Assembly (NCBI GenBank): GCA_028554795.2
Contig: JAPYKE020000512.1
Location: 1 to 64,000, forward strand
Direction of reading: 5' to 3'
From: Sinohyriopsis cumingii
Taxonomy: Eukaryota; Mollusca; Bivalvia; Unionida; Unionidae
DNA: 64,000 nucleotides
Position 1 is the stretch's first letter. Every line of letters begins with the position of its first letter. Shown here one piece after another: positions 42,377 through 61,978 of the stretch. The notes beneath the pieces were generated by a model. That model was not told the DNA's origin. It ran no database searches and worked only from the letters and a program-made list of their open reading frames with translations. The translations under genes were made by a program, and so were the position numbers.

Positions 42377-42760
42377 AGTAGTGACTAGGGTCACCCTAGC
42401 GTCAATGGGAATTAGCATTACAGACCCCCCCCCCCCCCGGGTCAATCTAGCGTCAAGGGAAAATTAACATGGAGAAAAATCGTGGGTCAATCTAGCGTCA
42501 AGGGGAATTTAACATGGAGAAAAATCGTGGGTCAATCTAGCGTCAAGGGGAACTTAACATGGAGAAAAATCGTGGGTCAATCTAGCGTCAAGGGGAATTT
42601 AACATGGAGAAATAATCGTGGGACTGTCTAGCGTCAAGGGAAATTGAATATGGGATTTTTTTTAAAAAAAAATATAAAAAAAAATTTTAAAAAAGGGGTA
42701 GGCAATGGAAAGTCATTCTCTTTTCGAGAAATATGGGTGGCCCTGAAAAGAGCCTTTGGT
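42377..42760 (+). repeat. Left terminal inverted repeat of the Polinton
   Basis: About 384 bp. It has an outer unique part with a long C run (42,426-42,438), then about five tandem 45-bp units of the type GTCAATCTAGCGTCAAGGGG with AACATGGAGAAAAATCGTGG, then an A/T tract, a conserved stretch (GGGGTAGGCAATGGAAAGTC) and, at the inner border, a histone-type stem-loop on the minus strand. The right repeat has about one 45-bp unit fewer. Confidence 0.95.
42739..42754 (-). terminator. Histone-type 3' stem-loop, gene A
   Basis: On the minus strand it reads AAA-GGCTCTTTTCAGGGCC-ACCCA, the metazoan histone mRNA stem-loop with a 6-bp stem (one G-U type pair) and a TTTC loop. It begins 64 nt after the stop codon of the coiled-coil gene at 42,819-43,142. 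A GAAAAGAGAATGA purine box follows (42,714-42,727), at the distance expected for U7 snRNA binding. Confidence 0.85.
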
Positions 42761-42818
42761 TTTTTCTTCTTCTGCTTCTAATTTCTTCTTTTTCTCAACC
42801 AACTTCTTATTTTCTCTC

Positions 42819-43142
42819 CTACACTCTTTCTCTTCTTTTCTTTCTTTTTTTCTCCTCCTCTTCTTTCTTCTTCTCTTCCTCCTCCTCTTTCTTCCTCTTC
42901 TCATTTTCTTCTTCTTCTTCAATTTTTTCATTCCATTTTCTTATCCTTATCCTTTCCTCTTCATCCTCCTTCTCCTCCTTTATCTCTTTCATGACATCAC
43001 TTATTATGTCCTTTACTTTTCTTAAATTGTTGATCTCCATCTTTACTCGATGGGGACTATAGGAATAGTGATCTTCATTGAGTCTCACTAACATCTGCTC
43101 CATCATTCCTAAATTGTCCAAAAAGTCTTGTAATTTTTGCAT
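42819..43142 (-). CDS. Polinton accessory coiled-coil protein A (107 aa)
   Basis: A small highly charged protein. An N-terminal part of about 50 residues (MQKLQDFLDNLGMMEQMLVR...) is followed by a long E/K/R-rich helix likely to form a coiled coil. It is the leftmost of three tandem genes with similar layout (also 43,603-43,965 and 44,450-44,857), each with a promoter-proximal repeat and a histone-type 3' end. A TATA-like CGTATAAG (43,217-43,224) and two copies of the GCGGACGTGAAGGAAAACAT element lie upstream. No known family was recognised; the function is unknown. The charged tail is low-complexity, but the conserved flanking signals support a real gene. Confidence 0.7.
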   Translation of the reverse strand: MQKLQDFLDNLGMMEQMLVRLNEDHYSYSPHRVKMEINNLRKVKDIISDVMKEIKEEKEDEEERIRIRKWNEKIEEEEENEKRKKEEEEEKKKEEEEKKRKKRRERV

Positions 43143-43230
43143 TTTGTCAAGGTGGTTCGAAGCAATCTTCTTTTTTATTCTTTGTAGAATGGTTTGAACG
43201 ACGAATACTGTGGGTTCTTATACGAAAAGC

Positions 43231-43255
43231 GCGGACGTGAAGGAAAACATCCCCC
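43231..43255 (-). promoter_or_regulatory. Conserved upstream element, gene A copy 1
   Basis: Plus-strand text GCGGACGTGAAGGAAAACAT followed by CCCCC. On the transcribed (minus) side it sits immediately 5' of the TATA-like box at 43,217-43,224. The same element occurs at 43,300, 44,014 and 44,901, always upstream of an accessory gene. Confidence 0.75.
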
Positions 43256-43299
43256 TAAAACATAAAATTGATCTTACCTAGATCATGACCAAACAACGC

Positions 43300-43324
43300 G
43301 CGGACGTGAAGGAAAACATCCCCC
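43300..43324 (-). promoter_or_regulatory. Conserved upstream element, gene A copy 2
   Basis: A second copy of the GCGGACGTGAAGGAAAACAT element, about 70 bp further upstream of gene A, with no TATA box of its own. It may be a duplicated binding site. Confidence 0.7.
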
Positions 43325-43559
43325 ACTTTCTCATTTCATATAATAAAACCCAAACTATACTCTCCACATACGCTAAGAAACAATAAAGAAACCCATAATC
43401 TTCTACTCACACAAACTTACGTGATCAGTTACAAACACAAACACAAACACACAAACACATACACTCACATTATGAAAAAGAGTCAGTGTTTATATTCACA
43501 CTACTCTACCTACACACATTGGCAAATCGATGGTTATTTCTTTTCTAGAGTATTGGGTA

Positions 43560-43575
43560 ACCCTGAAAAGGGCTG
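43560..43575 (-). terminator. Histone-type 3' stem-loop, gene B
   Basis: The minus strand reads AGCCCTTTTCAGGGTT followed by ACCCA. The stem keeps all six pairs through one A-U and one G-U pair, and the loop is TTTC. It begins 27 nt after the stop codon of the gene at 43,603-43,965. A purine box TAGAAAAGAAATAA follows at 43,535-43,548. Confidence 0.83.
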
Positions 43576-43602
43576 TTTTTTTGGAACTTCATGGACACCT
43601 GG

Positions 43603-43965
43603 TTAATGGTGGCACCTTCCAGGCCTGGCGCCACATACACATCTTGTTCCCCAGTTGCTTTTTACTTTTTTTGGGGAGAGAGCAGAGGCAGGATCAATAG
43701 CTTCAGAATCCCAATTTTCTGTCTCTGGGATTCTGATATTTCTTCTTCTCTCTTTTTCCTCCTCTTCTTTGTTTCTTCTCTCCTCCTCCTCTTTGTATCT
43801 TCTCTCCTCCTCTTCTTTGTTTCTTCTTTCCTCCTCTTCTCTCATCCTTCCCTCTTCGACAATGGCCTCCGCGGCCAGTTCGTTCAACAGGCGCCTGGCA
43901 TATTCCAGATGCACATGAAGTTCCAACAGTTTCGCTAGTCTGGTGTTCATTCTGGTGTTGATCAA
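43603..43965 (-). CDS. Polinton accessory coiled-coil protein B (120 aa)
   Basis: The N-terminal part NTRLAKLLELHVHLEYARRL resembles the start of gene C (KLAKLNEAYVNLHRVRHS). It is followed by repeated EEEERRNK / EEEERRYK units forming a charged coiled coil (about residues 40-74) and a C-terminal tail with a few cysteines and histidines (GTRCVCGARPGRCHH). The start at 43,965 lies below a good TATA box (GTATAAATT, 43,999-44,007) and the shared upstream element. Paralogue of genes A and C by tandem duplication; function unknown. Confidence 0.72.
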   Translation of the reverse strand: MINTRMNTRLAKLLELHVHLEYARRLLNELAAEAIVEEGRMREEEERRNKEEEERRYKEEEERRNKEEEEKERRRNIRIPETENWDSEAIDPASALSPKKVKSNWGTRCVCGARPGRCHH

Positions 43966-43998
43966 TCAACAAGGTAGCTGGACTGACGAGTGACTTTT

Positions 43999-44039
43999 AA
44001 TTTATACTAAAAGTGCGGACGTGAAGGAAAACATCCCCC
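43999..44039 (-). promoter_or_regulatory. Promoter of gene B: upstream element plus TATA
   Basis: The conserved element (GCGGACGTGAAGGAAAACAT, from 44,014) and the TATA box (minus strand GTATAAATT, 43,999-44,007) are separated by about 6 bp. The first ATG at 43,965 is about 35 nt further on. Confidence 0.78.
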
Positions 44040-44404
44040 CTAAAAACGTAAAATTGATCTTACCTTGATCATGACCAAAAACAACGAGCCGACCTAAAAG
44101 AAACACTCACTCAATTTTTTTATACTACCCATCACTATTATAAAAAAGTTTTCATTAATCACTTCAATATACTATCCACATACGCAAAGCAATCCATTCA
44201 AACCCCCAAATCTACTCTCCCCACACCTCAAACACCAAAAAAAAGCATCATCTTAATCTACTATCCACACCAACGTACGTGAGGGGTTACAAACACAAAC
44301 ACATACACTCGCACTATTAAAAAAAGAGTCAGTGTTTATATTCACACTACTCTACCTACACACATTGGCAAATTGATGGTTATTTCTTTTCTAGAGTATT
44401 GGGT

Positions 44405-44420
44405 AGCCCTGAAAAGGGCT
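44405..44420 (-). terminator. Histone-type 3' stem-loop, gene C
   Basis: The minus strand reads AGCCCTTTTCAGGGCT, a perfect 6-bp stem with a TTTC loop, followed by ACCCA and a purine box TAGAAAAGAAATAA (44,380-44,393). It starts 29 nt after the stop codon of the gene at 44,450-44,857. Confidence 0.85.
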
Positions 44421-44449
44421 GGGTTTTTTTTGTTTGCTATGGCAATCTT

Positions 44450-44857
44450 TTAGTTTCTAAGAATGCGATGTCCTCTGAGGATAGACTTTCTGGCGATAGG
44501 TCTGCTTCTTCGGAAAGAGAAGAAGAACTCTTTGGTGTCGATACGACAATCGACAAAGCCTCTGTCGGCTTCAGGTTGCTGCTGCTGCTGCTGCTGTTGT
44601 TGTTGTTGTTGTTGTTGCTGCTGCTGTTGCTGCTCCTGTCTCTGAAGTCTGTACTTCTCTGTCCATTCTTCTTTCTCCCTGTTCACTTCTTCTCTGAAGA
44701 GCTCTTCTATCAGGTCTTCAGTGACTTTTAACATTCTCACATTCTCTATCTCTTCTGGCTTCGGTATCAGACTGTGTCTGACCCTATGCAAATTCACGTA
44801 GGCTTCGTTTAGCTTAGCTAGTTTGGAGCACATCTTCGTAGGAGGATAAGTCGACAA
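44450..44857 (-). CDS. Polinton accessory coiled-coil protein C with polyQ (135 aa)
   Basis: The N-terminal part (MSTYPPTKMCSKLAKLNEAY) is related to protein B, followed by an acidic helical segment (TEDLIEELFREEVNREKEEW) and about twenty glutamines encoded by mixed CAG/CAA. The C-terminal end is SIRRHR-poor, with FFFSFRRSRPIARK basic residues. The shared upstream element lies at 44,901-44,924; a clear TATA box is not seen. The polyQ tract probably varies in length between copies. Function unknown. Confidence 0.72.
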   Translation of the reverse strand: MSTYPPTKMCSKLAKLNEAYVNLHRVRHSLIPKPEEIENVRMLKVTEDLIEELFREEVNREKEEWTEKYRLQRQEQQQQQQQQQQQQQQQQQQQPEADRGFVDCRIDTKEFFFSFRRSRPIARKSILRGHRILRN

Positions 44858-44900
44858 TGGATGGTTAGACTGGAAACAACCCGGTTCTCAAAGTCAAAGC

Positions 44901-44924
44901 GCGGACGTGAAGGAAAACATCCCC
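44901..44924 (-). promoter_or_regulatory. Conserved upstream element, gene C
   Basis: GCGGACGTGAAGGAAAACAT followed by CCCC, about 45 bp upstream of the gene C start codon. Unlike genes A and B there is no TATA-like sequence directly after it. Confidence 0.72.
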
Positions 44925-45052
44925 ACACGGTTTTCGAGCCGCAACGTTCAATGAGTGTCATGAGAGGGATAGTAAGAAATTAAAGAGCATGAATCAAACA
45001 TTCTTATACCCAAACAAAAGACAAAGGCATTTTTTTTCAAAACACAACATTT

Positions 45053-45058
45053 TTTATT
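45053..45058 (-). terminator. Poly(A) signal after the protease gene
   Basis: AATAAA on the minus strand, about 157 nt after the protease stop codon, in an A/T-rich stretch (45,020-45,170). It would end the major late-type transcript with a normal poly(A) tail, in contrast to the neighbouring accessory genes. Confidence 0.5.
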
Positions 45059-45214
45059 CAAAAATCACTTAACACTAAACAACAACTCTAACATTTTTTT
45101 TTAACAATAATCCAACATTATAACATCAAACATTTTTTTCTAATTACAAACATTTTTTCAATTCACACTCTACTTTAAACAGGGCTGACAACGTTGTGAA
45201 TGAAATTGTGATTT

Positions 45215-45730
45215 TCACTGTTGGAAGTCATTAGGCCATTGATGGACACTACGTTTCCTAGCTTGAGACAAAAGATAAGCATAATGGTCACAAAACCATC
45301 GATCTACTTTCACATCGTTTCTCGAAGAAGAACGAGGATCAAAATGAGTCACTAAATGTTCTAAGGAATAACCCAGGCTCCGATGATGCAGAAAATACAC
45401 ACAGTACTGTCCGCACACCAAGGAATCTGTGCCTTGTAATTTCACATTATTGAATCCGGTGGTCTGAGCATTTCTTCTCATAAAGTCAATAATATCGTCT
45501 TCCAAACGGGGCAATCCGTACGAATCGAAATATTCCACACATCCTTCTTGAGGAAAGTAAACGGCTACCCAGTGGGTTCCTGGGAGATGACTGTCGTCCG
45601 TGTTGATCACGTAAGCTTGATGGTCTTGAGGTTTGCGATGAGGGAGTTCATCTTTAGCACAGACGACAGGATTCCATGAAGCCGTATACGAACTGTGGTT
45701 CAAAAGGTAATAAAGTTCCCAGGTATCCAT
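45215..45730 (-). CDS. Adenain-like cysteine protease
   Basis: Capsid-maturation protease of the Ulp1/adenovirus-protease family; it probably cuts structural proteins during particle assembly. Counting from an upstream in-frame ATG at 45,760, the catalytic set is visible as His63 (GTHWVAVYF), Asp79 (EYFDSYG), Gln109 (KLQG) and Cys116 (LVCGQYC). The ATG at 45,730 (MDTWELYYLL) is the better start because it avoids overlap with the upstream gene and a lysine-rich lead; this gives about 171 residues. The frame is intact. It is the last core gene before the accessory cluster. Confidence 0.9.
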   Translation of the reverse strand: MDTWELYYLLNHSSYTASWNPVVCAKDELPHRKPQDHQAYVINTDDSHLPGTHWVAVYFPQEGCVEYFDSYGLPRLEDDIIDFMRRNAQTTGFNNVKLQGTDSLVCGQYCVYFLHHRSLGYSLEHLVTHFDPRSSSRNDVKVDRWFCDHYAYLLSQARKRSVHQWPNDFQQ

Positions 45731-45750
45731 GTTTTGTGTTTTTTTCTTCT

Positions 45751-46236
45751 TCACAGGCAATAATAAGTCGTCAATTCGATCCTGACTTTTTGCTTGAAAA
45801 TGTCTGACAAATAACCGTTTCTTCGTTTCGTCTCCTCACTCTGATTCAGGAGAGTTTCGATACTATGGATCTCTTGAGTGGTTAATGGTGGACAAGAATG
45901 TTCACGCAAGTCTTTATACCACTGGTGCCACACGTCTTCGTCCGAGATGAGACTCCAAGCTTCGTCCAGATACTCGTCCAATTTTTCTTCTTGACTCAGC
46001 ATCAGACATTTATCGTGTTGAATTTGACTGGGATGATCGTTTTGACATCCATAGCAATTTTTCTTGATCAATTCCGTCATTTTTTCGACCAAGTGTTTGG
46101 CAAAACAGGAGACTAAATGGGCTTCTTGTTCTGGCCATCTTGACTTCATCATGATCACTTCTTCTTTTTCCATGGTCTCCTCACATTCCATGTCCAAAGT
46201 TTCTCCACTAGGTAAAGAGGGATAACAGTCTTCCAT
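45751..46236 (-). CDS. Conserved Polinton protein with CxxC (161 aa)
   Basis: An intact frame between major capsid and protease. It has an acidic N-terminus, a possible metal site KKNCYGCQNDHPSQIQHDKC (residues about 58-77: C-x2-C with nearby H and C), and a C-terminal helical half. A gene of this type, with the same short cysteine/histidine block, is common next to the capsid genes of Polintons; its function is not established. It starts 6 bp after the capsid stop and probably shares its transcript. Confidence 0.75.
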   Translation of the reverse strand: MEDCYPSLPSGETLDMECEETMEKEEVIMMKSRWPEQEAHLVSCFAKHLVEKMTELIKKNCYGCQNDHPSQIQHDKCLMLSQEEKLDEYLDEAWSLISDEDVWHQWYKDLREHSCPPLTTQEIHSIETLLNQSEETKRRNGYLSDIFKQKVRIELTTYYCL

Positions 46237-46241
46237 GGCTT

Positions 46242-47547
46242 CTAGTAATCTAGAATAACTTCTCTCAAACTGTTGATTTCTATGGTATTATCGAATTCTG
46301 CATACAGGATGACGTTCACCGTCTCTGGTAGAGCATTAGTAAATTGAAGTTCCACACGAATCTGGCCAGATTTTATAGGGTGGAAATGTCCCTCGTCGCT
46401 GCCTTGGTCTGGAGTGAAATCGAAAGCCCACAAAGTGTAGCCATCTGCATAATCTTCGTACGTAATGCCGTGACTGGTGTTGCTTCCTAACTGTCCAGTG
46501 GCTTCGTACAGGGACAAGTACGACCTCAAGTAATTCTTCTTGGTAAAGTCAGGTTCGAAAGGTCGGGTACACAAGGTCTTGCCATCGCGACTGACTTCGA
46601 TCTTGGACACGTCAAAGTGTCGAAAGTGGAAAGGATTGTTTTCGAAGTCTCCGTTGAAGGCTGAATTCTCGACCATACCAAGGATCAAACGTTTGGGTAA
46701 CTGTCCTTGGAACAGATGATCTTCGATCATGGATCGCTGTCCCTTGGGAATGGTGAAGGTTTTCACTTCCACGCGACGTATGGGATACTTGGCGGTCGTT
46801 CTGCTCAACGTCTGACTGATGTCGTTTCCCACTTTGGGTAACACTTCCATGCGTCGTACGTAGAGTTTGGCCTCCTCGATTTTGCTTTTAGGAGTGCCAG
46901 TCTTAGTAGCATCATCATCAGCCAACAAATGGAAAGTGGCACTGCTGCGATTCAGTCTTAAGCGGACATTGACCCCGTTCAGCAAATATTTCTCTTGCAA
47001 CCACATGTCCAAATGCAAACGATCCATCAGTTCTAAACTCTGTCCCGCTCTGATTTTCTTTCGTCTTTCCTCAAAGCCGTCATTGTTAGTTGCGTCAAAC
47101 TTGCTCGCTTCGTCAGGTTCCCACAGCACACAAGCATTGAGATGAGTATTCTTGGCATCTATTCCGTACGTCAAGAGATTTTCCAGGTAGGCACGGTAAG
47201 GGTAAGTAGCCATGCTGCTGCTGACCAGTTTGTTATTCAAGTACAAGTCCACTGAGCTGAACAAGAAATGCATGAACTTGTTGACGGGAGCTATATTCTC
47301 AGTGTCTTCTACTGCACCATTATCCTTATCTAGAACTTTGACTTTCAAGTACAAAATAACTGCTATTCAGATCGATGTAATCTTCGGGCTGTCCCTTGAT
47401 TTCAAACTCGATGGGAGCGGAATCGGTCAATGAGGAGACGGGGTGAAATTCCACCCATTGGGATTCTTGCATCGTCATCATCGTGGGGGGCATGGCAAAC
47501 AGGTCCAGTTCCGACTTGGATCAAGCGCAAGATTCTCGGTGCATCAT
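46242..47547 (-). pseudogene. Major capsid protein (double jelly-roll), broken
   Basis: The main shell protein of the predicted virion. The large 3' part (46,242-47,352) is open and contains MHFLFSSVDLYLNN, YPYRAYLENLLTYG and ENNPFHFRHFDVSK, text typical of Polinton hexon-like capsids. The 5' part starts at ATG 47,547 and has two breaks: a TGA at 47,521-47,523 nine codons in, and a change of frame at a run of four T (minus strand, 47,353-47,356). Total coding length is about 434 codons. Neither break is near a splice-like signal that I can see, so the copy is judged dead. Confidence 0.88.
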
Positions 47548-47561
47548 TTTTTCTCTGTGTC

Positions 47562-47975
47562 TCAATAATCGAAAACGTCTAAGTCTCGAACGCTTCTTTT
47601 CTTGGCCTTTCTAGCTTGAAGTCTGGTGAAAGGGTGTTTTCTTCGTCGTCTCTTTCTGCCTTGTCCTTGCTGAATGCTTGACTCGGTAGCGTGCAGGGTA
47701 TTTATAGGTGTGTCTCGTCGGCCCAAAATGTCTTTGCCCGTTTGCAGCAAGACATTTTTGCCTGCCCTCATGAAGGCTTCTTTAGGGTTTTGTTTGTCGA
47801 TGATGACATTTTGGAGAAATTCTTTGCCTTGCGTCAGTGCCGCATCTTTCAAGGCGTGCAATCCGCGTGTCACCATCGGTTTCAACACCGGGGCCACCGA
47901 ACGAAAGGCCGATTTTAACATATCTCCTAAACCGTGTCCTCGCTGTCGAGCAACCCCTCGGTACACTGGATACAT
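47562..47975 (-). CDS. Small basic Polinton structural-type protein (137 aa)
   Basis: An intact frame between the two capsid genes. The N-terminus MYPVYRGVARQRGHGLGDML is followed by an amphipathic helical region (residues about 18-75) and a strongly basic C-terminus (GRKRRRRKHPF, QARKAKKRSVRD). Proteins with a similar GHGLG start and basic tail lie at this place in many Polintons and are thought to be virion-internal or membrane-active, comparable to adenovirus small core or pVI-like proteins; that comparison is inference. Confidence 0.72.
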   Translation of the reverse strand: MYPVYRGVARQRGHGLGDMLKSAFRSVAPVLKPMVTRGLHALKDAALTQGKEFLQNVIIDKQNPKEAFMRAGKNVLLQTGKDILGRRDTPINTLHATESSIQQGQGRKRRRRKHPFTRLQARKAKKRSVRDLDVFDY

Positions 47976-47978
47976 GAC

Positions 47979-48912: not shown

Positions 48913-49337
48913 AATTCCAGAGTTCTGTGGCTGTCCGAGGGGTTACTGGACATCAGAGGCGTGTCTCCGCCCAAAATGGGGTTCTGGTTGTGATTGTGGT
49001 TGGAGTGGTGGCTGGCACTGGCACTGGACACAAGGTTCCCGTGGTTCCCGTTCGAGGAGAATTTCAGGGAGGGATTGGGAAGCAGGTAACCGATGCAACT
49101 GCTCAAAAAAATAGTCCACAATTGTTTGTCTCCTTGTTGCAAACTCAAATTGGCAATGGCTGCCCCGATGACACAATACACCACGAAGATTTGGCAGAAA
49201 AAGAAGACTTGCGTTTTAGGCACACGTTCTCCACACCACACCCACAAGGGTTGTTTTTGTAAATCTTGCACAGAAGAACTGGGTGAAGGAGGAGTGGTCG
49301 ACGTAGCTGCGTCTGTGTTAAAAGGCATGATGGTCAC
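48909..49337 (-). CDS. Two-span membrane protein (142 aa)
   Basis: An intact frame overlapping the minor capsid start by 4 bp and the integrase stop by 4 bp. It has a serine/threonine-rich N-terminus, then LWVWCGERVPKTQ, a membrane segment at residues about 43-64 (VFFFCQIFVVYCVIGAAIAN), a second at about 73-86, and a histidine/asparagine-rich C-terminal tail. A protein with two membrane segments next to the minor capsid is typical of Polintons; it may sit in a virion inner membrane. Function is inferred from position only. Confidence 0.75.
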   Translation of the reverse strand: MTIMPFNTDAATSTTPPSPSSSVQDLQKQPLWVWCGERVPKTQVFFFCQIFVVYCVIGAAIANLSLQQGDKQLWTIFLSSCIGYLLPNPSLKFSSNGNHGNLVSSASASHHSNHNHNQNPILGGDTPLMSSNPSDSHRTLEL

Positions 49338-50482
49338 TTCTTTTTATAGTCGATGACTTGCGAAGCGTCGATCCAAGAATCAAAACTGGGTGGATATCCT
49401 TTCCAACGTACTTTGACTTCTTTGACACGTCGTTTGCCCACTTTACGGGTTCTGCGTTCGAGAATGCTTTCGATGTCGTACACGTCGTCTTCTTTTTTGG
49501 TCACACGTTGTAACTCGGGCAAATAAAACGTTCCTTTGAGCACTTCTCCGTTCATGTCTTCCAATTTATAGACGGCAGGATGACGACCATGCACTCGTCC
49601 AGTGACACGAAACAATTCTGTCGTCCAGTTAGGTAAGTAACCTTTGTCGAAAGTGCGTTTGGTTGTGCCAATGCGCACCCAATCTCCACCGGCCAACTCT
49701 CCACTTTTCTTAGGGACAGCCCTCGTCGGGAACGTACCAAACAGGCGCTCAAACACCAACACTTCGTTCTCGGGAGTCACTTCTTGCGGGGCACGTCCAA
49801 TGCTTCGATGGTAACATTGGTTGTACGCTTGCACCAGGTGCGGTAAGATGTCGATGTACTTCAGAGTGTGGTGATGCGTAAAATATTTCCACATGCGTTT
49901 TTTCAAAGTGCGTTGAAAACGTTCCACGATGCTGGCTTTTGTTTCGGGATTCTCGGTGGTAAAAAAATGAATGTCACGTTTCTTTAATTCTTTTTGGAAA
50001 GCTTGGTTCAGAAATTCGGTACCTTTGTCCGTTTGCCATCGAAGAGGGTGACGACCGCTTTGTTTCAACACTCGTTGCAGGGCTCGCACTAACTCGCTGC
50101 TCGATTTGGAAGTCAAGGGTACGACCCAGGCAAATTTGGAAAAGACGTCGATGACACAAAACAAATATTTGTAGCCGCGGTTGTAGCTGGCCAAATGAGA
50201 GACATCGGCTAAATCGGCTTGCCATTGATGATCGATGCCTTCCACTCGGGTGCGACTTCTGGCAAACTTGCGTCGAATGGGTTTGTGTAAAGTGTAGGTA
50301 GCTTGTTCTTGCAACCATCGTTGCACTTGAGGTAAACGGAGACTTTTCAATCGAGTTTTGGCAGCACGATACAATTTTTGAACTCCTGCGTAACCTGCAG
50401 GATGAGAGGGATCGTAGTAAATGCTGGCTAAGACTTTTTCCATATTTTTTTGTGTTTGTTTGTGTGTTAATAAGGCACCCAC
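49334..50482 (-). CDS. rve integrase with C-terminal chromodomain
   Basis: Inserts the element into host DNA and creates the 6-bp duplication. The catalytic triad is intact: Asp90 (QWQADLAD), Asp152 (WQTDKGTEF) and Glu187 (ASIVERFQ), with 35 residues between the last two as in retroviral integrases. The C-terminus (about residues 333-382) is a chromodomain (YDIESILERR, VRWKGYPPSFDSWI), which could steer insertion to chosen chromatin. No HHCC zinc motif is seen at the N-terminus. An alternative start at 50,443 (MEKVLASIYY) would remove 13 residues. One of the few core genes without damage. Confidence 0.93.
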   Translation of the reverse strand: MGALLTHKQTQKNMEKVLASIYYDPSHPAGYAGVQKLYRAAKTRLKSLRLPQVQRWLQEQATYTLHKPIRRKFARSRTRVEGIDHQWQADLADVSHLASYNRGYKYLFCVIDVFSKFAWVVPLTSKSSSELVRALQRVLKQSGRHPLRWQTDKGTEFLNQAFQKELKKRDIHFFTTENPETKASIVERFQRTLKKRMWKYFTHHHTLKYIDILPHLVQAYNQCYHRSIGRAPQEVTPENEVLVFERLFGTFPTRAVPKKSGELAGGDWVRIGTTKRTFDKGYLPNWTTELFRVTGRVHGRHPAVYKLEDMNGEVLKGTFYLPELQRVTKKEDDVYDIESILERRTRKVGKRRVKEVKVRWKGYPPSFDSWIDASQVIDYKKK

Positions 50483-51107: not shown

Positions 51108-51156
51108 GGGTTTGTCAGGGGTCGATTCTGAGATCTTGGGACTTCCGAGGGCCTTT

Positions 51157-52584: not shown

Positions 52585-52606
52585 GATTTTTTTATGTGGA
52601 GTGAAA

Positions 52607-53335
52607 TTAAGTCGAGGACGGAGACGTGTACAGGACAGGCCCTCCTTCTTGGCACCAGTGCTGAAACAAGTGGGTACGAAATCGCAAATCCTCGGGGGTT
52701 GTAGGTTTCAAATCGACGAGTAAATAGGCGTGTGGCGTTTGCGTGGCATCGTCGTACGCCTGAGTCAGCCAAGGCGTTCCTAACTGTTTGGCTAAGACTT
52801 GCACTTGCGATTTATCTCAAGGGCTTTTAAACAAGACCACGTAATGCGCATTGAGACTGATGGTGCGATGGGCTTTACTTTGTTGAAACAAATTTTGGGT
52901 AATGTAAACGACACTGGCATTACGGTGATGCCCTTTGCGCGTGAACCACAGTTTAATTTCTTCTTCGTCTTCTCCTAACATGTCGTCGAAAATGACCAAA
53001 TGGGTTTGACGGGAGTCAGAGACGATGCCGTCGTCTTCTTTAGGAATGCCTTCCACAAACACGATGGAATCGCCTTGACTTTCTCGCAAGAGGCTGTACG
53101 CCGATTGCCACTCTTTGTAACACCACACGATCCGCTGAGGTGGCAGATCGATCAAATGATGTTTATGTTCGATCAAACGTTTGACGAATTCGGTTTTGCC
53201 TGAACCGCTAGGTCCAGCAATGAGCATGTTAAAGGGATGGCGAAGATACAAAGCCTCCCAACTGGCACGATCTAAGTGTTCGTCGATGACTTTGACAGTA
53301 GAGGAAGAGGGAGCAGAGACAGCAGAGGTAGCCAT
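52607..53335 (-). pseudogene. A32/FtsK-type genome-packaging ATPase, one nonsense codon
   Basis: The motor that would fill the capsid with DNA. It has Walker A AGPSGSGKTEF (residues 40-50), Walker B THLVIFDDML (111-120) and a VYITQNLF sensor motif. A TGA at 52,817-52,819 ends the first frame after 172 residues (LFKSP). The same frame continues without further breaks for 70 codons to 52,607 with text that belongs to the family's C-terminus. Total about 243 codons, the normal size. TATA box GTATATAAAC at 53,380-53,390. Confidence 0.88.
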
Positions 53336-53380
53336 AGTGTGAGAAATGTCATTTGTGACACGAAAACAAACAAGACGAGA

Positions 53381-53390
53381 GTTTATATAC
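53381..53390 (-). promoter_or_regulatory. TATA box of the ATPase gene
   Basis: GTATATAAAC on the minus strand, about 46 nt before the ATPase ATG and next to the poly(A) signal (53,406-53,411) of the gene before it; the two genes are packed with almost no gap. Confidence 0.6.
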
Positions 53391-53405
53391 TTTTTTCAGA
53401 ACACG

Positions 53406-53411
53406 TTTATT
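53406..53411 (-). terminator. Poly(A) signal after the membrane-anchor gene
   Basis: AATAAA on the minus strand, 7 nt after the stop codon at 53,419. Supports ordinary polyadenylation for this gene. Confidence 0.55.
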
Positions 53412-53418
53412 GAATGTT

Positions 53419-54140
53419 TCAAACATGAATACGAAAGACAAAAATACATAAAAGCCAAAGGCTTAAGTACAAGGATAAAAGGCACATGATAACCATTAAC
53501 GTGGAATAAACACAAGTGTCTGTACAACATGTTTTGGGTAATGTTCTAACCAGTTCTATAGTAGGGGGTAAGGTTACACAAGTGTCCTCCCGAAAGGGTC
53601 TTTCAGACCTGTCCACGACAGTCCCGTCCTGGGTGACGGGTTCTTCTGGCACCGTCACTAACACGGGTTGAAAAGTAACTTTTTTCCTTGAACAACTCTC
53701 GTGCATACTGGGCCACTTCTTGGGTCCAAGCCTCAAAATCCCATTCTTTCCAGGCACGGACATCTGTCCAATGGGGATGTAAGTCACAAGCTACACACAC
53801 ATCGTCATACACGTCTTGGGTAGCTAAAAGTTGACGAATCTTTTTTTCCTGTTGAGGTCGAGAAGTATCCAGATGAAACCGCAAGGCTTTGAGCAAAAGG
53901 AGTCTCTCGTGACCATTTAAGCCATTGAGGTGGTAAGTACTGATCGTAAAGAGTCCACAAAGAATCGGCTGGTAAACGAAATCCCAGAAAACAAGTCACT
54001 AAGACACACACCACTTGTCGACCCAAATTGAATGGATACAGTTCTTGTAATAATTGATGGTAATGATCCACGGTTTGAATATGGTCATTGAGTTCCTTCC
54101 ACGGAATCTGTTGGATTACATACGACATAAGTCGTGGCAT
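53419..54140 (-). pseudogene. C-terminal membrane-anchored protein, two frameshifts
   Basis: Protein-like text runs over three frames: 54,140 to about 53,915 (YVIQQIPWKELNDHIQTVDH, FNLGRQVVCVLVTCFLGF), about 53,915 to 53,690 (CVACDLHPHWTDVRAWKEWD) and 53,690 to 53,419 (PVLVTVPEEPV and a terminal membrane segment STLMVIMCLLSLYLSLWLLC). The second switch is at a run of six A on the coding strand (53,680-53,685). A TATA box CTATAAAA lies at 54,151-54,158. It reads best as a single gene of about 240 codons damaged twice; three overlapping genes is the less likely alternative. Family not recognised. Confidence 0.55.
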
Positions 54141-54603: not shown

Positions 54604-54624
54604 GAATAGGTCAGTCCGTACAAT

Positions 54625-54981: not shown

Positions 54982-55028
54982 TCCTAGCTAAACTGGTTTC
55001 TTCTTCGTCAACGACATGGTAAGTTACT

Positions 55029-55667
55029 TTAATGTCTCGGTCCCACTAAGGGTAAGTAATGACAATTCGGTGACCATCGAGCATGTTCTACGTAGGCCGA
55101 ATCTTGCGGTTCCCAGTAATGAAGTGACACACCGCAACTGAAGCACTTGACTTTATCTCCTTCGCCCAAGTAGAAAAATCCAGCTCTGGCTAATTCTTCG
55201 GGGGTCGGTCCTCCCAGATACTTAGGCCATTTTCCTTTGAACGATTGAAGACGATTTTCAAAGTCACAGTATTCCGACAAACGCACAGGAAACGAATATT
55301 CGTCTTTCACAGGTTCGTTTCGATGAGGGTTGGGTGACATGAACAGGAGTTTCCTCAGGGCTGGATGACATCCGTAGGGGGGTAGACGTGAAGGTGAACA
55401 TTCCCTTTTAAAACGAAACCCAGTAAAATGTCCAAGAGGACGAACGGCATCACTTTCGCATCCCTCAGGTTTGACACGCACAGCATCCCTTTCCATGATA
55501 GGGGTAGTGACACTAAAGTTCCCACGATGCTTTACGGCATCGCTAAGGTCACAACGTACAGCATCGTACCCATCGCAAGGCTCACAATCGCATTCCACTT
55601 CAGAAGCCTCACACTTGAATTGTGCCTTTCTAAACAACTTGTTTTGTGTTTCTCTGAAAGTATTCAT
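55029..55667 (-). CDS. BIR-domain (IAP-like) protein (212 aa)
   Basis: A probable inhibitor of apoptosis. The C-terminal third is a single BIR domain with a perfect C-x2-C-x16-H-x6-C zinc site (CFSC ... EHARWSPNC) preceded by RLQSFKGKWP and the typical ARAGFFYLGEGD turn. The N-terminal half has four short DAVR/DAVK-centred repeats (residues about 33-82). There is no RING domain. A TATA box (GTATATAAAAA, 55,723-55,733) overlaps the 3' end of the polymerase gene. Blocking host cell death during replication is the family's known role in viruses; here it is inferred. Confidence 0.88.
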   Translation of the reverse strand: MNTFRETQNKLFRKAQFKCEASEVECDCEPCDGYDAVRCDLSDAVKHRGNFSVTTPIMERDAVRVKPEGCESDAVRPLGHFTGFRFKRECSPSRLPPYGCHPALRKLLFMSPNPHRNEPVKDEYSFPVRLSEYCDFENRLQSFKGKWPKYLGGPTPEELARAGFFYLGEGDKVKCFSCGVSLHYWEPQDSAYVEHARWSPNCHYLPLVGPRH

Positions 55668-55699
55668 CTTGTTCGCTCGGTCTTGGTAGTCACAATGAA

Positions 55700-58600
55700 C
55701 TATCGATCTTGCCTAGGGTTCCTTTTTATATACAGACCAATACCGACGTGTCCATACGGTAAGGTGAAATGATTGGGAAGTCGCACTCGCTTCTGGTACA
55801 CGATTTGATAGACTTTTTCCAAGGGCCGACTGACGATGTGATGAGTGGGTAAACGTACAATCTTGTTCGGTTGATAGGTGGTCACTTTAAAGTTTCCATC
55901 CTCTCCCGATCGCAAGGCTTCTTTCATTACCCCAAAGTTGATCACACGACTGGTACGATAATTCAGAGTCAGTCCTTTCACTTTGCACGTCGTGTGCACT
56001 TCTCCTTGTGGGTCCCGGTATTCGTAGCCGTAATTTTTGGGACCGCCACTGACGAAACTTAGAATCTTGTCGTCGGGATGCTCGTCTGTCCAGGCTCCTA
56101 AACGGTCTCCTACGATGTCAGGGTGCTGTTGAATCGGGTGATGGATGTAAATGCAACTGTCCGTGTCAAAGTAGAGGACGCGTTCCCCTAACAGTTCTAA
56201 AGCTTCGTACAATTTTAAGCGAGCATGAGCTGTCACGTAAGCCGCAATGATGACATTTCCAAAAGGGTCGTCTTGTACAAAGTCCAGATCTTCTTTGTAA
56301 TTGACCAAGATCAAATCCTCTCGAACGACGTCCACGTGTTTCATGTATTTGGTTTTGTCGTGAATCATCTGGAAGTAGCGGGAAGGTTCTGTCAAATATT
56401 CCGTCTTGGGTAAACACGGTCGTTGTGCCATTTTACCCCACAAGCAATTTAACATCACTTTGGCAAACGATCACCTGCCTTCGTTTTTCTCGATGTGGTC
56501 TAAAGTGATGCCTTCTTGTTCATAGTATTTCTCTTTGAATTGTATTTGGTCTTCGGGAGTGTGACACCAGGATGGATAGCCGCTGGCTTCTTGTTTCAGT
56601 TTCAAAAAGGCATCCACGTAGTCTGCGAAAATGCCTTTCTGACTGGGATCACCCTTGTGGTATTCTTGTGTCTTGGGAAAGTGGCAAATTTCGTACACTT
56701 CCAACAGTTGATATCCCATGTCCAGAGCTTTGAACAATTCCACGCTGACCCACGTCATCGTCAAGGCCCGTTCTTCCTGGGTGTGCTGGCAAGGTTGGTC
56801 TTGGTTGCACGTTTCGGCACAAGTACGGCACAAGGGAAACATCAGTTTGTCTTGACAATGGTGAGGTAAGACGGGATGGTATAGGTTCGTGGGAGGCAAA
56901 ACTTTACACTTGATCAAACCTTCGTATTGTCGAATGTTTTTCAGGTCGATGTTTTCCGTGAACAATTGCGGGTGCCCTACAGGAAAGCGACAATATTTGC
57001 ACACGTAGGGATACAGCGAACACACGTCTAAGTATTTGATTTCTTCTCCTTTCTCTTCGTCGGCTTGGTACAGCAAACAGGTGGCATTGGTCCTTCCTCC
57101 GTACAAACTATCCCTCGGGTTCAGCGGGTCCATGAACTGCTAACTTTCCACGAGGCGTTTAAACTCGGGATCGGTTTTCATACGGTGATCGTACTCGTGT
57201 TCCCACATTTCCACCACTTGGTATCCTTCCTGTTCCAACTTTAGGTGCCGCTGACAAGTGTCCTGGTACAAGTCTTCCATGGTTCGTTGTAAAATCTGAT
57301 TTTTAGTGCTACGATCAGGGTAACAGACGGGACATCCGTGAAATAAGCAACCGTTAAACTCGTACACGATCTTGGGGTTTTCTAAGTCCCAGCCATCGAC
57401 CGAATACGTTCCGATGTCTTCCTTGTCGCACAAGTAATGTAACCAACGTACGGCTTTGACCGAGTATTGACGTTTGACAAAGTGGGTCGTTTGAGGGCTG
57501 ATGACATCCACGGTGTTTTCAGGCATGAATCGTTGTCGATACACTAAGGAACACGCTTTGGCAATGGTGCAAGCTTCTTTCAAAGGATCGACCCCTCCGT
57601 GTTCCATGAACTGTTCTCGAAATTTTCCACAGCAACGCCGTAAAATGTCCACGTCGGAACGACAATACTTTAGCATTTCTTCCTGAAAGTCGAAAGGGTC
57701 CGAGGCGTGAGCCTGGTACCAAGCGTAGGAAGCTTCTCGTTGTTCGGTACGCATGTTGTCGGGGTCGTAATAGTGAGCCTCAGGTAAATGGGGTAGAACG
57801 GCGTGTTGATTGGCTTCCGTAGTGAAAAAGTGTGGAAAGTACCCTTTAGCCATTTCTGTCATTCCAAACGTTTTAGGCATTCGGCTCAAAGGCATGGCCA
57901 AGTAACTCATCGAATCTTTAAACTGTACTTGTCCCACTTGCATGAAAATGATTTTGGCTCCGTTCAAAGTCACTTTAGGACGCTCGGTGTCATGTTCCGT
58001 ATAGTATCTGAGAAGAAACTGTCCATCGTATCCGGAGAAATTGTGAGCCATCACCGTGGCATGACGATGACAATCTCCGTAACGTTCGATGTCCTCTTGG
58101 CTCCACGTCTTGTCGACGGGGTCTAAGACCCATTGGGCAAAATCGGCTAACGTGTTCGGTGCTCGAAAGATTTTTTCCCGTCCTCCAGGAATCTTGCTGC
58201 AGTGAGGGCAATGACTGAAGATAGGTTCTTGAATGCACTTCTCGCACGCTCGATGAGCCACGCAGAAATTAGGAATGTGAATACCGGTCTCTTGCATGAT
58301 GAAATTGCCTTTCTTCTTGTGACCGTCCTCTTTCTCTGGTGGAGGTTGGTATTTTTGCACGTAGCATTGGTGTTCCAAGTCCACGATGTGGTGACAAATG
58401 TGACATTTTTTCTTTCCTCGACATACGTGTGCCTTGGCAGTATTGGTACATATGCCTTGTCCACACGTAGGGCACAATCTCAGGAGTTGACAAGCACATT
58501 TCTGCTGTGAACCTTGCGTCTTCAGATGTTGTTGGTAACAGGTAGGGCTGACAAACGTGCGCAGACAAGTTGAACAAGGCACTGGTCCTTCGCTCAGACA

Positions 58601-59701
58601 GGGTGGAGAGGCCAAACATCCTGGGCATTTCGATCCGCAATATTTGTGTTGCTCTCGATTATTATAACCACGGTCACATTTCTCAAAATAATAAACATAT
58701 CCCAGGAATCCGGTGATGGTGGTAATGGTATCGAAATGGTCATCGTGATATTAAACATGAATGTATTTTCCATCCTTAAAATCTTGGCCTCGAAACAACA
58801 GAGGCCCACGCATTTCTTGAGGGTGCACTTTCAAGGTGTAGCGAGGAGCTAGGACATCTTGCAATTTTTGCATCTCAGGAATGCCACAGGGTGTGTCTTT
58901 GGACAGTCCGGCTTGTTGTAACAGGAGTTCTGCTTCGTTTCGTTGTTTGGCTCGATCGGATTGTTGAATAGTTCTCCAGGTTCTTTTCCATTCTACCGTG
59001 TTGTTCTTGTTGGCATAGGTTCGTCCCACCACGATGGCACGGGCTAAACACATCTGGTCTTGAGGGTTGTTAATTCGGACGAGACTTGTTTTGGTGTTGC
59101 GAAGGTCGTCCACCAATAACATCTTTTTGCGTCCAGTCCCTTGAGGAGGAGAGACGTGGGTCATGTCCAGTGTGGCTTTACCATCGGTGATGTCAAACTG
59201 GTCATTAGATTGTTGTACGTGTTGAATCTTGTCCATGACTTTCGAAGCGGTCAATTCTGCAGGGGTGCTAAACTCGATCCAAACAGGGGATTTCAAACCG
59301 TCGTGTTGTATGGAAAGTCTCAAGCGATCGTCTTCTTTGGGTTGACATTTTCGCTTGAGTGTGGTGAGCAAAGAATCCCACACCCCAGTGATAAACATTT
59401 CTGCTTTCTCTAACGGCACTTCAGCCTTGAAATCTTTAAACTTCACCGTGTATTTGTAAGCCGTGGTTCTAAATTTTCTAGAGGAGCGCTTTTCCGTCTC
59501 TCGAATGGAATAGTATTTTTCAGGGTTGACTAAGGGTGGCAAACTTGGTTTAGAGGGTTCGGATTCTGGTTCACTCATGTCCTCTTCAAAATCACTGGCA
59601 TGAATTTGTGCCAAGATTTCAGTCCTGGTACGAGGCGATAGATCACGTTTCTGCCTCTTACTTTCTTCTTCTTTCTTCTCGAATGAATAGGATCGTTTCA
59701 T
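55700..59701 (-). pseudogene. Protein-primed DNA polymerase B, three nonsense codons
   Basis: The replicative polymerase of the element, 1,333 codons in one frame from ATG 59,701. Exo II (HNFSGYDGQF, codon about 551) and Exo III (YCRSDVDIL, about 680), motif A (DVCSLYPYV, about 890), motif B (LNCLWGK, about 1,087) and motif C (YFDTDS, about 1,180) are present, plus KVKG. The Exo I acidic motif is missing: text runs KKKGNFIMQETGIHIPNF with no D-x-E. The N-terminal region and a cysteine-rich segment (codons about 340-470) are typical of Polintons. In-frame stops lie at 58,751 (TAA), 57,140 (TAG) and 56,471 (TGA), without any frameshift. TATA box at 59,748-59,756. Confidence 0.93.
55723..55733 (-). 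promoter_or_regulatory. TATA box of the BIR gene
   Basis: GTATATAAAAA on the minus strand, about 55 nt before the ATG, inside the last codons of the polymerase frame. Confidence 0.6.
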
Positions 59702-59747
59702 CTTGAGTGAAAAACGTCAAATGACTCAAGTTTAAACACCATAGACT

Positions 59748-59780
59748 AATTTATAGTCATGGCAGACAGCGTATATAAAA
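59748..59780. promoter_or_regulatory. Divergent promoter: polymerase (-) and zinc-knuckle gene (+)
   Basis: A TATA box for the polymerase on the minus strand (CTATAAATT, 59,748-59,756) and one for the rightward transcript on the plus strand (GTATATAAAA, 59,771-59,780) lie 15 bp apart, so the two genes share a very short control region. Confidence 0.65.
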
Positions 59781-59799
59781 GGGTGTGTGTCTTGTCCTT

Positions 59800-60286
59800 T
59801 CACTATTCATTTCACTCTCAAACCGAGCACAACGATCGAAGAGACTAGCCAAATCGAACGTTTCGTCAGAGCTTTGCGAGGGGTCATTAGAAAATTCTCT
59901 TCAGACCAGCCGACGGACTACTCTCCTTCCTTTCGAGATAAAAGTCAAGATACTTGCTATATCTGTCAGAAGAAAGGGCATTGGTCTTCAGAGTGTCCAG
60001 AGCGTCAAAAAAGAAAAAAAGGGCTAAAAAAGACAAAAGTCAAGATACCTGTTATTATTGTCATGAAAAAGGACATTGATCTCCAGATTGCCCAAAAAAG
60101 AAACAAGAGGAGTCAGAAGAAAAGATGAATTCTTCAGAAGAAGAGAGGGATTCTTCAGAGGAAGAGAGGGATTCTTCAGAGGAAGAAGAGGAAGAAAGAA
60201 GACAATTCCTTTACAAGAGGCAAAGAAACAGGAGAAGAAAAGAAGAAGGGAAGAAAATGAGGAGAAAGAAGAGGAAAAGACGGTGA
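59800..60286 (+). pseudogene. Two-zinc-knuckle protein, broken and without ATG
   Basis: A small basic/acidic protein with two CCHC knuckles: CYICQKKGHWSSEC (about 59,957-59,998) and, in another frame, CYYCHEKGH followed by SPDC (about 60,050-60,095). A TGA at 60,077-60,079 interrupts the second knuckle. Downstream it is rich in SSEEERD repeats and then R/K residues, with a stop at 60,284-60,286. No ATG exists between the TATA box (59,771-59,780) and the first knuckle. A poly(A) signal AATAAA lies at 60,395-60,400. CCHC knuckles bind single-stranded nucleic acid; the role here is unknown. Confidence 0.6.
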
Positions 60287-60394
60287 TGAAATTCAAAAAA
60301 CAGAGAGACTAAACAAGGAGAAAGAAGAAGTCAATGAACTTTTTTAAAGTGTTCTGTTGTGAATTGTGAATTGGATTGTAATTATGGATAAACG

Positions 60395-60400
60395 AATAAA
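60395..60400 (+). terminator. Poly(A) signal after the zinc-knuckle gene
   Basis: AATAAA about 110 nt after the end of the zinc-knuckle frame, on the plus strand. Confidence 0.5.
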
Positions 60401-60489
60401 TTAATTATATAAGGTAAGTGTCTTTGAGTTTTGATTTTAAAATAAGAACGTACACTCACGCACTCATACACAGATACGTACTATAGGGG

Positions 60490-60590
60490 TAAAATGGGCT
60501 GGTTTTTTTTTTTTTTTTTTTTGAGTTATTGGCAATTGAAAGTGTATCTCTTTTCGAGAGGCGTGGGTGGCCCTGAAAAGGGCCTTTTTT
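60490..60590 (-). repeat. Internal partial copy of the terminal repeat
   Basis: A T run followed by TTATTGGCAATTGAAAGTGTATCTCTTTTCGAGAGGCGTGGG aligns with the inner end of the left terminal repeat (GGCAATGGAAAGTCATTCTC, TTTTCGAGAAATATGGG), up to and including the stem-loop. It shows that the 3'-end module has been copied within the element. Confidence 0.7.
60569..60584 (-). terminator. Histone-type 3' stem-loop, Q-rich gene
   Basis: The minus strand reads AAA-GGCCCTTTTCAGGGCC-ACCCA, a perfect match to the metazoan histone stem-loop with flanks. It begins 21 nt after the stop codon of the gene at 60,606-61,178. A purine box TCGAAAAGAGATA follows (60,545-60,557). Confidence 0.88.
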
Positions 60591-60605
60591 GGTGTAGGGG
60601 TGAGT

Positions 60606-61178
60606 TTAAGCAATCAACTTTAACTGCCTTAAGCCTTTGCCACGGCCAAGGCCTACTTCTGGACTGCGTAATGTTGATGATGATGATTGGGTTGAAATCA
60701 CTAAGGGTGGTACGGTAGGCTTAGTCACAGGGTTAACGTGTTTAGCTCGGGAAGGTCGTATTCTCTTCGGTCGTAATAAAGAAGTCTTATACATTTGTTT
60801 CAGACTTCTTAACTCCGCTAAAATGTCCAACAGTACCGTAACCGTTTGATTTTCACCCTCTTGTTTCTTTGCTGCTACTTCTTCTTGCTGTTGTTGCTGT
60901 TGTTTTTTTCTTACCTCTTCTTCTTGCTGCTGTAGGAGAAAAGCTTGTTCCGCTTCCTTTTGTCGTTGTATAAATTTCTCCAATTCTTCTTTCTGTCTCT
61001 GTCTAAAATTCTCCACTTGCGGTAATGAAGAAGGTAACGAAGGTTCCGGAACAAATTCTTGCGAGTTAAGAAAATCCACAAAATCCCAATGTACCTCTTC
61101 TGAAAGTAAATCCGGGTTCCCTTGGGCAGTCTCCCCTGCTGGTGCACCCCAATGGATCGTTTTCTGAGTTTCCGTCAT
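60606..61178 (-). CDS. Q-rich coiled-coil protein (190 aa)
   Basis: An intact frame with acidic N-terminus, a long helix rich in Q/E/K (RQRQKEELEKFIQRQKEAEQ then a run of Q), a helical LLDILAELRSLKQMYKTSLL segment and a basic/serine-rich tail. A good TATA box (CTATATAGA, minus strand, 61,222-61,230) and a histone-type 3' end frame it. No family recognised. The coiled coil and 3' signal link it with the three left-end genes, although the shared upstream element is not seen here. Confidence 0.75.
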   Translation of the reverse strand: MTETQKTIHWGAPAGETAQGNPDLLSEEVHWDFVDFLNSQEFVPEPSLPSSLPQVENFRQRQKEELEKFIQRQKEAEQAFLLQQQEEEVRKKQQQQQQEEVAAKKQEGENQTVTVLLDILAELRSLKQMYKTSLLRPKRIRPSRAKHVNPVTKPTVPPLVISTQSSSSTLRSPEVGLGRGKGLRQLKLIA

Positions 61179-61219
61179 GTTGAATCACGGTCGCATTTGA
61201 CTGTACACAAGCGCTAGCG

Positions 61220-61350
61220 AATCTATATAGACCACGTGACGTCACAGACTGCTCTCTTCGGATTGGATGCGGGCTAACTGAATTTTGTAACGCGTGTTCG
61301 GATTGGTGAATGAACTCAATCCGTTTCAATCCTTCCTCTACCTATAAATA
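61220..61350. promoter_or_regulatory. Divergent promoter with CACGTG, TGACGTCA and ATTGG boxes
   Basis: Between the Q-rich gene (-) and the 76-aa gene (+). It contains minus-strand TATA CTATATAG (61,223-61,230), overlapping E-box CACGTG and CRE-like TGACGTCA (61,232-61,243), two inverted CCAAT boxes (ATTGG at 61,262-61,266 and 61,301-61,305) and plus-strand TATAAATA (61,343-61,350). Such boxes are common in cell-cycle and histone promoters. Confidence 0.7.
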
Positions 61351-61394
61351 AGCGCAGTTCACTGCATTGATTCACCTGTTCTCGTCGCTTCAAG

Positions 61395-61625
61395 ATGTGG
61401 ACCACAGTCGAATCATCCACCCTTGTGTCTTCCATGGTGTTTAGGACGGACATGCTCATGTATGTCCGGTCCAAGTGGACCGTTGTCGACAAGTCAGACA
61501 CCAGTCTGTGGATACGAAGAGTGTACGTAGAAAGACAAGGTTGCCTCAAGAGGACACTGATTTATGGCCCTCGAGTACGACGCAGCTTGAGGACAAGAAG
61601 ATGCCGCAGATGCCCTTTATGTTAA
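61395..61625 (+). CDS. Small basic protein of unknown function (76 aa)
   Basis: A short intact frame reading towards the right end, starting MWTTVESSTLVSSMVF and ending in an arginine/cysteine-rich tail (RRSLRTRRCRRCPLC). A TATA box lies 45 nt before the ATG (61,343-61,350) and a histone-type stem-loop starts 24 nt after the stop. These signals, not the protein itself, are the reason to believe it. No family recognised. Confidence 0.6.
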   Translation: MWTTVESSTLVSSMVFRTDMLMYVRSKWTVVDKSDTSLWIRRVYVERQGCLKRTLIYGPRVRRSLRTRRCRRCPLC

Positions 61626-61642
61626 TGGATACATTAACATAA

Positions 61643-61978
61643 ACCCAAAGGCCCTTTTCAGGGCCACCCATAGGTCTCGAAAAGAGAATGACTTTCCATT
61701 GCCTACCCCTTTTTCTAAAAAAAAAAATTATTTTTTTTTTTAAAAAAATCCCATATTCAATTTCCCTTGACGCTAGACAGTCCCACGATTTTTTCTCCAT
61801 GTTAAATTCCCCTTGACGCTAGACAGTCCCACGATTTTTTCTCCATGTTAAATTCCCCTTGACGCTAGATTGACCCACGATTTTTCTCAATGTTAATTTT
61901 CCCTTGACGCTAGATTGACCCGGGGGGGGGTCTGTAATGCTAATTCCCATTGACGCTAGGGTGACCCTAGTCACTACT
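61643..61978 (-). repeat. Right terminal inverted repeat of the Polinton
   Basis: About 336 bp, the inverted copy of 42,377-42,760, with about four 45-bp units instead of five and a shorter C/G run (61,921-61,930). It ends ...GGTGACCCTAGTCACTACT. Confidence 0.95.
61650..61665 (+). terminator. Histone-type 3' stem-loop, right-end gene
   Basis: The plus strand reads AAA-GGCCCTTTTCAGGGCC-ACCCA, matching the animal histone consensus at every position, with a GAAAAGAGAATGA purine box at 61,679-61,691. It lies at the inner border of the right terminal repeat and mirrors the one in the left repeat. Confidence 0.9.

Follow-up and report, generated by a model that had tools for sequence, protein, structure and literature searches.

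Histone-type 3′ processing signals behind the accessory genes of a Polinton in the mussel Sinohyriopsis cumingii

The stretch analyzed here comprises positions 1 to 64,000 of contig JAPYKE020000512.1 from the Sinohyriopsis cumingii assembly GCA_028554795.2, hereafter the window, and contains a Polinton of 19602 bp (42377..61978) with five small accessory genes towards its ends. Each of these genes is followed, in its own sense orientation, by a stem-loop, the letters ACCCA and a purine-rich box, the arrangement that marks the 3′ ends of replication-dependent histone genes. It is very probable, judging from the sequence features described below, that the accessory genes end in host-format histone 3′ processing signals, which the host stem-loop binding protein (SLBP) and U7 small nuclear RNA (snRNA) would process, and that the core genes of the element are polyadenylated. 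In histone mRNAs, the stem-loop is the binding site of SLBP, U7 base-pairs with an element further downstream, and cleavage by CPSF73 falls between the two (PMC7026596).

A strict scan of the 64 kb, demanding six standard pairs, a TT[TA][CA] loop and ACCCA immediately after, returned exactly five sites, all with a TTTC loop, and a first-order Markov simulation with a loop rule slightly looser than TTTC gave one site in 60 simulated windows. The five copies comprise (i) stem-loop 1 at 42739..42754 on the minus strand (GGCTCTTTTCAGGGCC, ACCCA, box GAAAAGAG; Rfam match 42759-42714, 34.7 bits), behind accessory open reading frame (ORF) 1 (42819..43142, minus strand, 107 amino acids); (ii) stem-loop 2 at 43559..43574 on the minus strand (AGCCCTTTTCAGGGTT, ACCCA, box GAAAAGAA; 22.8 bits, E 0.075), behind ORF 2 (43603..43950, minus strand, 115 amino acids); (iii) stem-loop 3 at 44405..44420 on the minus strand (AGCCCTTTTCAGGGCT, ACCCA, box GAAAAGAA; 27.1 bits, E 0.0018), behind ORF 3 (44450..44833, minus strand, 127 amino acids, with a glutamine tract); (iv) stem-loop 4 at 60569..60584 on the minus strand (GGCCCTTTTCAGGGCC, ACCCA, box GAAAAGAG; 35.7 bits), behind ORF 4 (60606..61178, minus strand, 190 amino acids); and (v) stem-loop 5 at 61650..61665 on the plus strand (GGCCCTTTTCAGGGCC, ACCCA, box GAAAAGAG; 38.0 bits), behind ORF 5 (61395..61625, plus strand, 76 amino acids, isoelectric point 11.1). 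Measured from the ORF list, the gaps between stop codon and stem are 64, 28, 29, 21 and 24 nucleotides for ORFs 1-5, all in sense, and both ACCCA and GAAAAGA are present in 5/5 copies.

An earlier, sequence-only reading of the same DNA had reported a 6-bp stem, TTTC loop, ACCCA and GAAAAGA at five sites, 21-64 nucleotides past accessory stop codons, in sense and on both strands, a description that the scan and the measured gaps bear out. Four of its five coordinates are exact; the second site runs from 43559 to 43574 and does not start at 43560. It had also counted changed pairs in two copies, a number to be corrected to three: an outer A-U pair at 44405 and 43559, a G-U at 43559 and a U-G at 42739. 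The test it proposed with the Rfam histone covariance model RF00032, whose gathering score is 34 bits, succeeded for three of the five window copies (38.0, 35.7 and 34.7 bits) and fell short for the other two.

The cassette recurs across the genome. An RF00032 search of the whole 2.9 Gb assembly scored the top 75 out of 589,472 first-look candidates, and all 75 listed matches lie above the cut-off; 68 of these 75 loci were fetched, and 68/68 match the ends of the window element by DNA, 65 encoding a relative of an accessory protein and 67 some protein of the element. The RF00032 list is incomplete: the host histone genes, whose 35.9-39.4 bits would place them in its score range, are absent from the 68 fetched places. 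A profile search of the fetched loci together with the window yielded 141 cassettes, 122 of them distinct over 66 nucleotides, with six stem pairs in 126, five in 14 and four in 1. The stem is followed by ACCCA in 115/141 and by AGCCA in 11/141, and AAAAG, present in 138/141 cassettes, starts exactly 14 nucleotides from the stem in 136/141. An ORF of at least 60 amino acids ends within 40 nucleotides upstream of the cassette in sense orientation in 99/141 cases, and in antisense orientation in 1/141.

The 68 loci were chosen by model score, and the control for this choice is a split into listed matches and other cassettes. Listed-match cassettes show six pairs in 65/68 and ACCCA in 67/68, and among the 68 non-listed cassettes from the same loci, 56 show six pairs, 43 ACCCA and 64 AAAAG at +14. 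A second control relies on four elements chosen by their integrase, both ends of which were fetched in part: cassettes are present in 4/4 left ends and in 3/4 right ends, the fourth right stretch lying outside the element. A full stem was found in 15 of these 16 cassettes, all 15 with AAAAG at +14, eight followed by ACCCA and seven by AGCCA. The integrase search itself scored 111 matches of 44,892 first-look candidates, a count to be taken as a lower bound, so that at least 111 matches are 98-100% identical to the integrase of the window (its own copy plus 110 others at 98-99%). All but one of the scored matches (110/111) are without internal stop, and the at least 110 near-identical copies together with their open frames point to a recent burst of the element.

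The stem and the box are far more conserved than the neighbouring synonymous sites. Divergence was measured in 34 score-picked cassettes behind an open accessory gene 5, over 266 equal-length pairs from which those with identical third positions were excluded. On average, third codon positions diverge by 26% and the first and second ones by 8.6%; the corresponding values are 1.5% in the 16-nucleotide stem-loop, 4% in stem plus ACCCA and 6.8% in the box, with 20% in the gap between stem and box, 27% downstream and 11% in the spacer from stop codon to stem (157 pairs). Accessory gene 5 is itself under purifying selection, its ratio of non-synonymous to synonymous differences per site (pN/pS) being 0.25 (120 pairs, mean pS 0.36) and 0.225 (105 pairs, mean pS 0.34) in a sample of 31 open equal-length copies of the 36 distinct ones listed. 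In addition, TCTCGAAAAGAGA at the box, to which TCTAGAAAAGA corresponds in host H3 and H2B, might form a second hairpin in some copies; its first three letters, TCT, have their commonest form in 88-97% of copies and its fourth letter in 54%, and we take TCT to belong to a longer box.

The host histone genes lie in repeats of ∼8.27 kb, and three of their 3′ ends, fetched from one repeat, were assigned to H3, H2B and H2A by reading the translations. All three ends share GGCCCTTTTNAGGGCC, followed by ACACA, ATACA and ACACA, respectively. H3 and H2B have the GGCCC stem, the GAAAAGA box and the +14 spacing of AAAAG in common with the element cassettes, and H2A comes close, with AAAAG starting at +15 and a box that reads GAAAAGG. 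The RF00032 scores are 35.9, 38.2 and 39.4 bits, and a profile built from the five window cassettes matches the three ends with E values of 9e-12, 1e-11 and 6e-10, which refer to a search of only 3 kb and derive much of their score from the stem. Over the 50 nucleotides downstream of the stem, host ends and cassettes resemble each other beyond shuffled sequence in 15/15 comparisons (p 0.002-0.024, with 0.002 the floor of the shuffle test and the box contributing), and the host ends resemble one another in 2/3 comparisons. It is plausible that these sequences share an origin in the 3′ flank of a host histone gene. The downstream likeness, H2A against cassette 3 being an example, would also be expected if the cassette were a host flank captured by an ancestral element and carried in the element mRNAs without function; such a passenger should decay neutrally, a prediction at odds with 1.5% divergence in the stem-loop against 26% at third positions and 20% in the gap, and at odds with a cassette that stands behind several different genes at a fixed spacing, so that we consider carriage without function very unlikely.

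Two kinds of gene ending can be distinguished in the element. Among 28 ORFs, a stem core lies within 400 nucleotides downstream only for the five accessory ones (0/23 of the others), and for these five small end genes the stem-loop, ACCCA and GAAAAG box are all inside the 400 nucleotides. AATAAA is found just three times on the element's minus strand, at 53406, 45053 and 43174. The signal at 53406..53411 stands 7 nucleotides past the ORF 53419-53763 and probably serves the right core block for polyadenylation; the one at 45053..45058, followed by a GT-rich stretch, stands 156 nucleotides past the protease-position ORF (this name and that of the capsid-position protein are putative) and probably does so for the left core block. 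Because these two signals follow blocks of core genes, those genes are probably polyadenylated, and the motifs suggest that the element is probably divided into a polyadenylated core and accessory genes with histone-type ends. The third signal, at 43174, lies ∼380 nucleotides past stem-loop 2 and could serve accessory mRNAs that are mainly polyadenylated downstream, the stem-loop then only modulating their fate; both kinds of 3′ end have been reported for some histone genes (PMC9756948, PMC3661734). The scan for AATAAA and ATTAAA, the sole variants considered, found neither within 400 nucleotides past any of the five accessory genes, which makes downstream polyadenylation as their main ending very unlikely.

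Least likely of all is a hairpin that acts as DNA, for instance when the element replicates, is packaged or recombines at its inverted repeats, with an incidental histone likeness: two of the five window copies (42739 and 61650) do fall within the interrupted terminal inverted repeats, but the other three lie outside them, some 1-2 kb into the element, the orientation tracks the gene (99 vs 1 of 141), and a near-palindrome required only as DNA would need no polar ACCCA, no box at +14 and no match to host histone genes.

All cis parts of histone 3′ processing are present in the element, and the proposal of the sequence-only reading that the element uses the host histone pathway finds support, at the level of these cis signals, in their conservation, in the 68/68 element loci and in the match to the host histone genes. 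In the proposed mechanism, host SLBP would bind the stem-loop of the accessory mRNA, the host U7 small nuclear ribonucleoprotein (snRNP) would bind the GAAAAG box, and CPSF73 would cut between the two, just after ACCCA. The products would be short, stable mRNAs without poly(A), translated mainly in S phase, the time when the element would be able to replicate. The core genes (polymerase, integrase, ATPase, capsid-position genes and protease), arranged in minus-strand blocks, would end at ordinary poly(A) signals. Cleavage, the absence of poly(A) and the S-phase timing of the accessory mRNAs, along with any part they play in when the element replicates, we infer from the signals. More broadly, the window element would represent an animal DNA transposon-virus lineage with two classes of mRNA, its replication and particle genes giving polyadenylated messages and its poly(A)-free accessory messages being tied to S phase via SLBP and U7, a wider proposal that we hold to be reasonably likely.

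Several results weigh against processing by the host SLBP/U7 machinery. The A-U-closed copies at 44405 and 43559 stay under the RF00032 threshold, and covariation among the 141 cassettes amounts in essence to a single compensatory change, from G-C to A-U at the outer pair in 22/141, which adds little. The antisense control is weak, the far side of the cassette often being an inverted repeat. One of the 16 integrase-picked cassettes is without its 5′ arm, and for three older copies, with integrase pieces 81-86% identical, a cassette was found in 1/3 stretches, with one pair broken, the other two stretches having no similarity to the element end. Four distant relatives of the Polinton in other hosts gave no RF00032 match up to E 5. 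In addition, the host U7 was not found among the best 65 of 801,960 genome candidates for RF00066, a search run with no control. In predicted pairing with human U7, four window copies do not surpass their shuffled versions (18-25% of which do as well) and the fifth is a borderline case (7%); with fly U7, two window copies likewise do not surpass theirs (42% and 49%).

Further results on U7 come from patterns and from pairing energies. The U7 letters CUCUUU of human, mouse and fly pair with an AAAGAG purine core (PMC7026596). The corresponding pattern CTCTTTN{1,12}AATTTGTCTNG gave 44 genome matches vs 77 in a reversed control, with no convincing U7 hairpin among the 20 examined. A further pattern, TCTTTTCTAN{0,6}AATTTNTCT, with 38 matches vs 28 in the control, was rejected: the eight of its repeated matches that were fetched look like integrase-coding sequence from older copies, an identity that tblastn confirmed in 3/3 tested. 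Regarding pairing, a mouse H2a control with human U7 is ahead of all shuffles, three of the five window copies beat their shuffles with fly U7 (2-3% as good), and the mean over the 141 copies compared with shuffled sequence is -9.3 vs -7.5 kcal/mol for human U7 and -9.9 vs -6.7 kcal/mol for fly U7.

Beyond this genome, homologues of accessory ORFs 4 and 5, 65% and 75% identical, respectively, are longer predicted proteins whose tails can be compared with the cassette by back-translation, a procedure that cannot fix every base. Taken codon by codon, the tail of the ORF 4 homologue fits ACCCA and GAAAAG at the same offset, and fits the stem except for the sixth base, which is necessarily A. The tail of the ORF 5 homologue accommodates an AGCCC-type stem; T is forced at the third position past the stem, a departure from ACCCA, and the last base of GAAAAG misfits. 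Searches of viral contigs gave no confirmed relative by ATPase or capsid-position alignment and no match to the stem-loop pattern, and that pattern had no match in genome contigs. The capsid-position alignment, used on genome contigs, retrieved the four distant relatives mentioned above, in which tblastn found no accessory gene. The core gene order of the window Polinton recurs in relatives within metagenome-assembled genome (MAG) records of symbionts. Four Polinton fragments stand in bacterial GTDB MAG records (tubeworm and mussel symbionts, and others), evidently as host contamination.

A literature search, with subscription journals thinly covered, did not find Polinton together with histone stem-loop, or adintovirus together with histone mRNA, and the titles and abstracts surveyed name no histone-type signal in viruses or transposons. 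The element cassettes resemble a replication-dependent histone 3′ end in (i) the 6-bp stem, 4-nucleotide loop, A-rich 5′ flank and ACCCA, (ii) the purine box at a fixed distance and the stop codon of a short ORF close upstream, and (iii) nearly the same letters as in the host histone genes; unlike histone genes, the element genes have no histone match and are borne by a mobile element. The window element is like Polinton/Maverick (adintovirus-like) elements in its inverted repeats, 6-bp duplication, polymerase B, chromodomain integrase, A32-type ATPase, capsid-position gene and the gene order of the relatives in tubeworm- and mussel-symbiont records, and differs from other Polintons in the histone-type accessory 3′ ends, none of which were seen in the four distant relatives, where no accessory gene was found. 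We know of no non-histone gene set, viral or cellular, with the histone pathway as its regular 3′ end; the accessory genes would be the first. If the proposal is correct, a DNA virus would be able to time genes to S phase by means of a 60-nucleotide RNA cassette, and its accessory genes would be missed by RNA sequencing with poly(A) selection. The 122 distinct cassettes constitute a natural variant set for the requirements of SLBP and U7.

The five accessory ORFs have no histone match in Pfam (E 0.01). Relatives of ORF 1 with the same start region reach 129-132 amino acids. ORF 4 has 20 database homologues, and 17 aligned sequences display nearly invariant WDFVDFL-SQEFVP and basic PKRIRPSR stretches, which are possibly an activation domain and a nuclear signal. 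The AlphaFold model of ORF 5, with a mean predicted local distance difference test score (pLDDT) of 52.7 and a predicted template modelling score (pTM) of 0.31, led to no conclusion. At the left-end position of six other copies, several different Lys/Glu-rich accessory proteins are encoded, and they precede the same kind of cassette. One further fetched locus carries a 332-amino-acid ORF (L038:1472-2470, minus strand) in which the protease-position protein and one of accessory type are joined; this ORF stops 23 nucleotides short of a histone-type stem-loop.

The window element is a Polinton by its structure and genes. It displays terminal inverted repeats and a 6-bp target-site duplication, TCCGCT, on either side; the left and right repeat regions, both interrupted, comprise 42377..42768, with a 45-bp tandem repeat at 42439-42653, and 61636..61978. 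Polymerase B, integrase and an A32-type ATPase are likewise present, although the polymerase frame is broken in this copy. On the minus strand lie the integrase with its chromodomain (49334..50443), the packaging ATPase with a Pox_A32 match (52817..53335) and the DNA polymerase B region in several frames (55700..58297, wider range to 58628), for which 2/3 pieces tested gave Pfam matches. With E 0.001 as the limit, the capsid-position ORF has 591 database homologues, several of which are labelled as coming from oysters and clams, and Pfam and PDB sequence searches, the latter with a profile, gave no match for its protein. The frame is broken in the capsid-position gene (46242-47493, minus strand) and in polymerase B, and accessory ORF 1 seems to be damaged close to its end; the window copy is therefore probably inactive in part. 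A further ORF of the Polinton, at 55029-55667 (minus strand), encodes a BIR domain, as in inhibitors of apoptosis (Pfam E 2.1e-23), and is without a histone-type end. Outside the Polinton, an ORF-bearing segment at 3225-15221 is repeated at a distance of 7629 bases, and the ORFs in its first copy match reverse transcriptase and RNase H.

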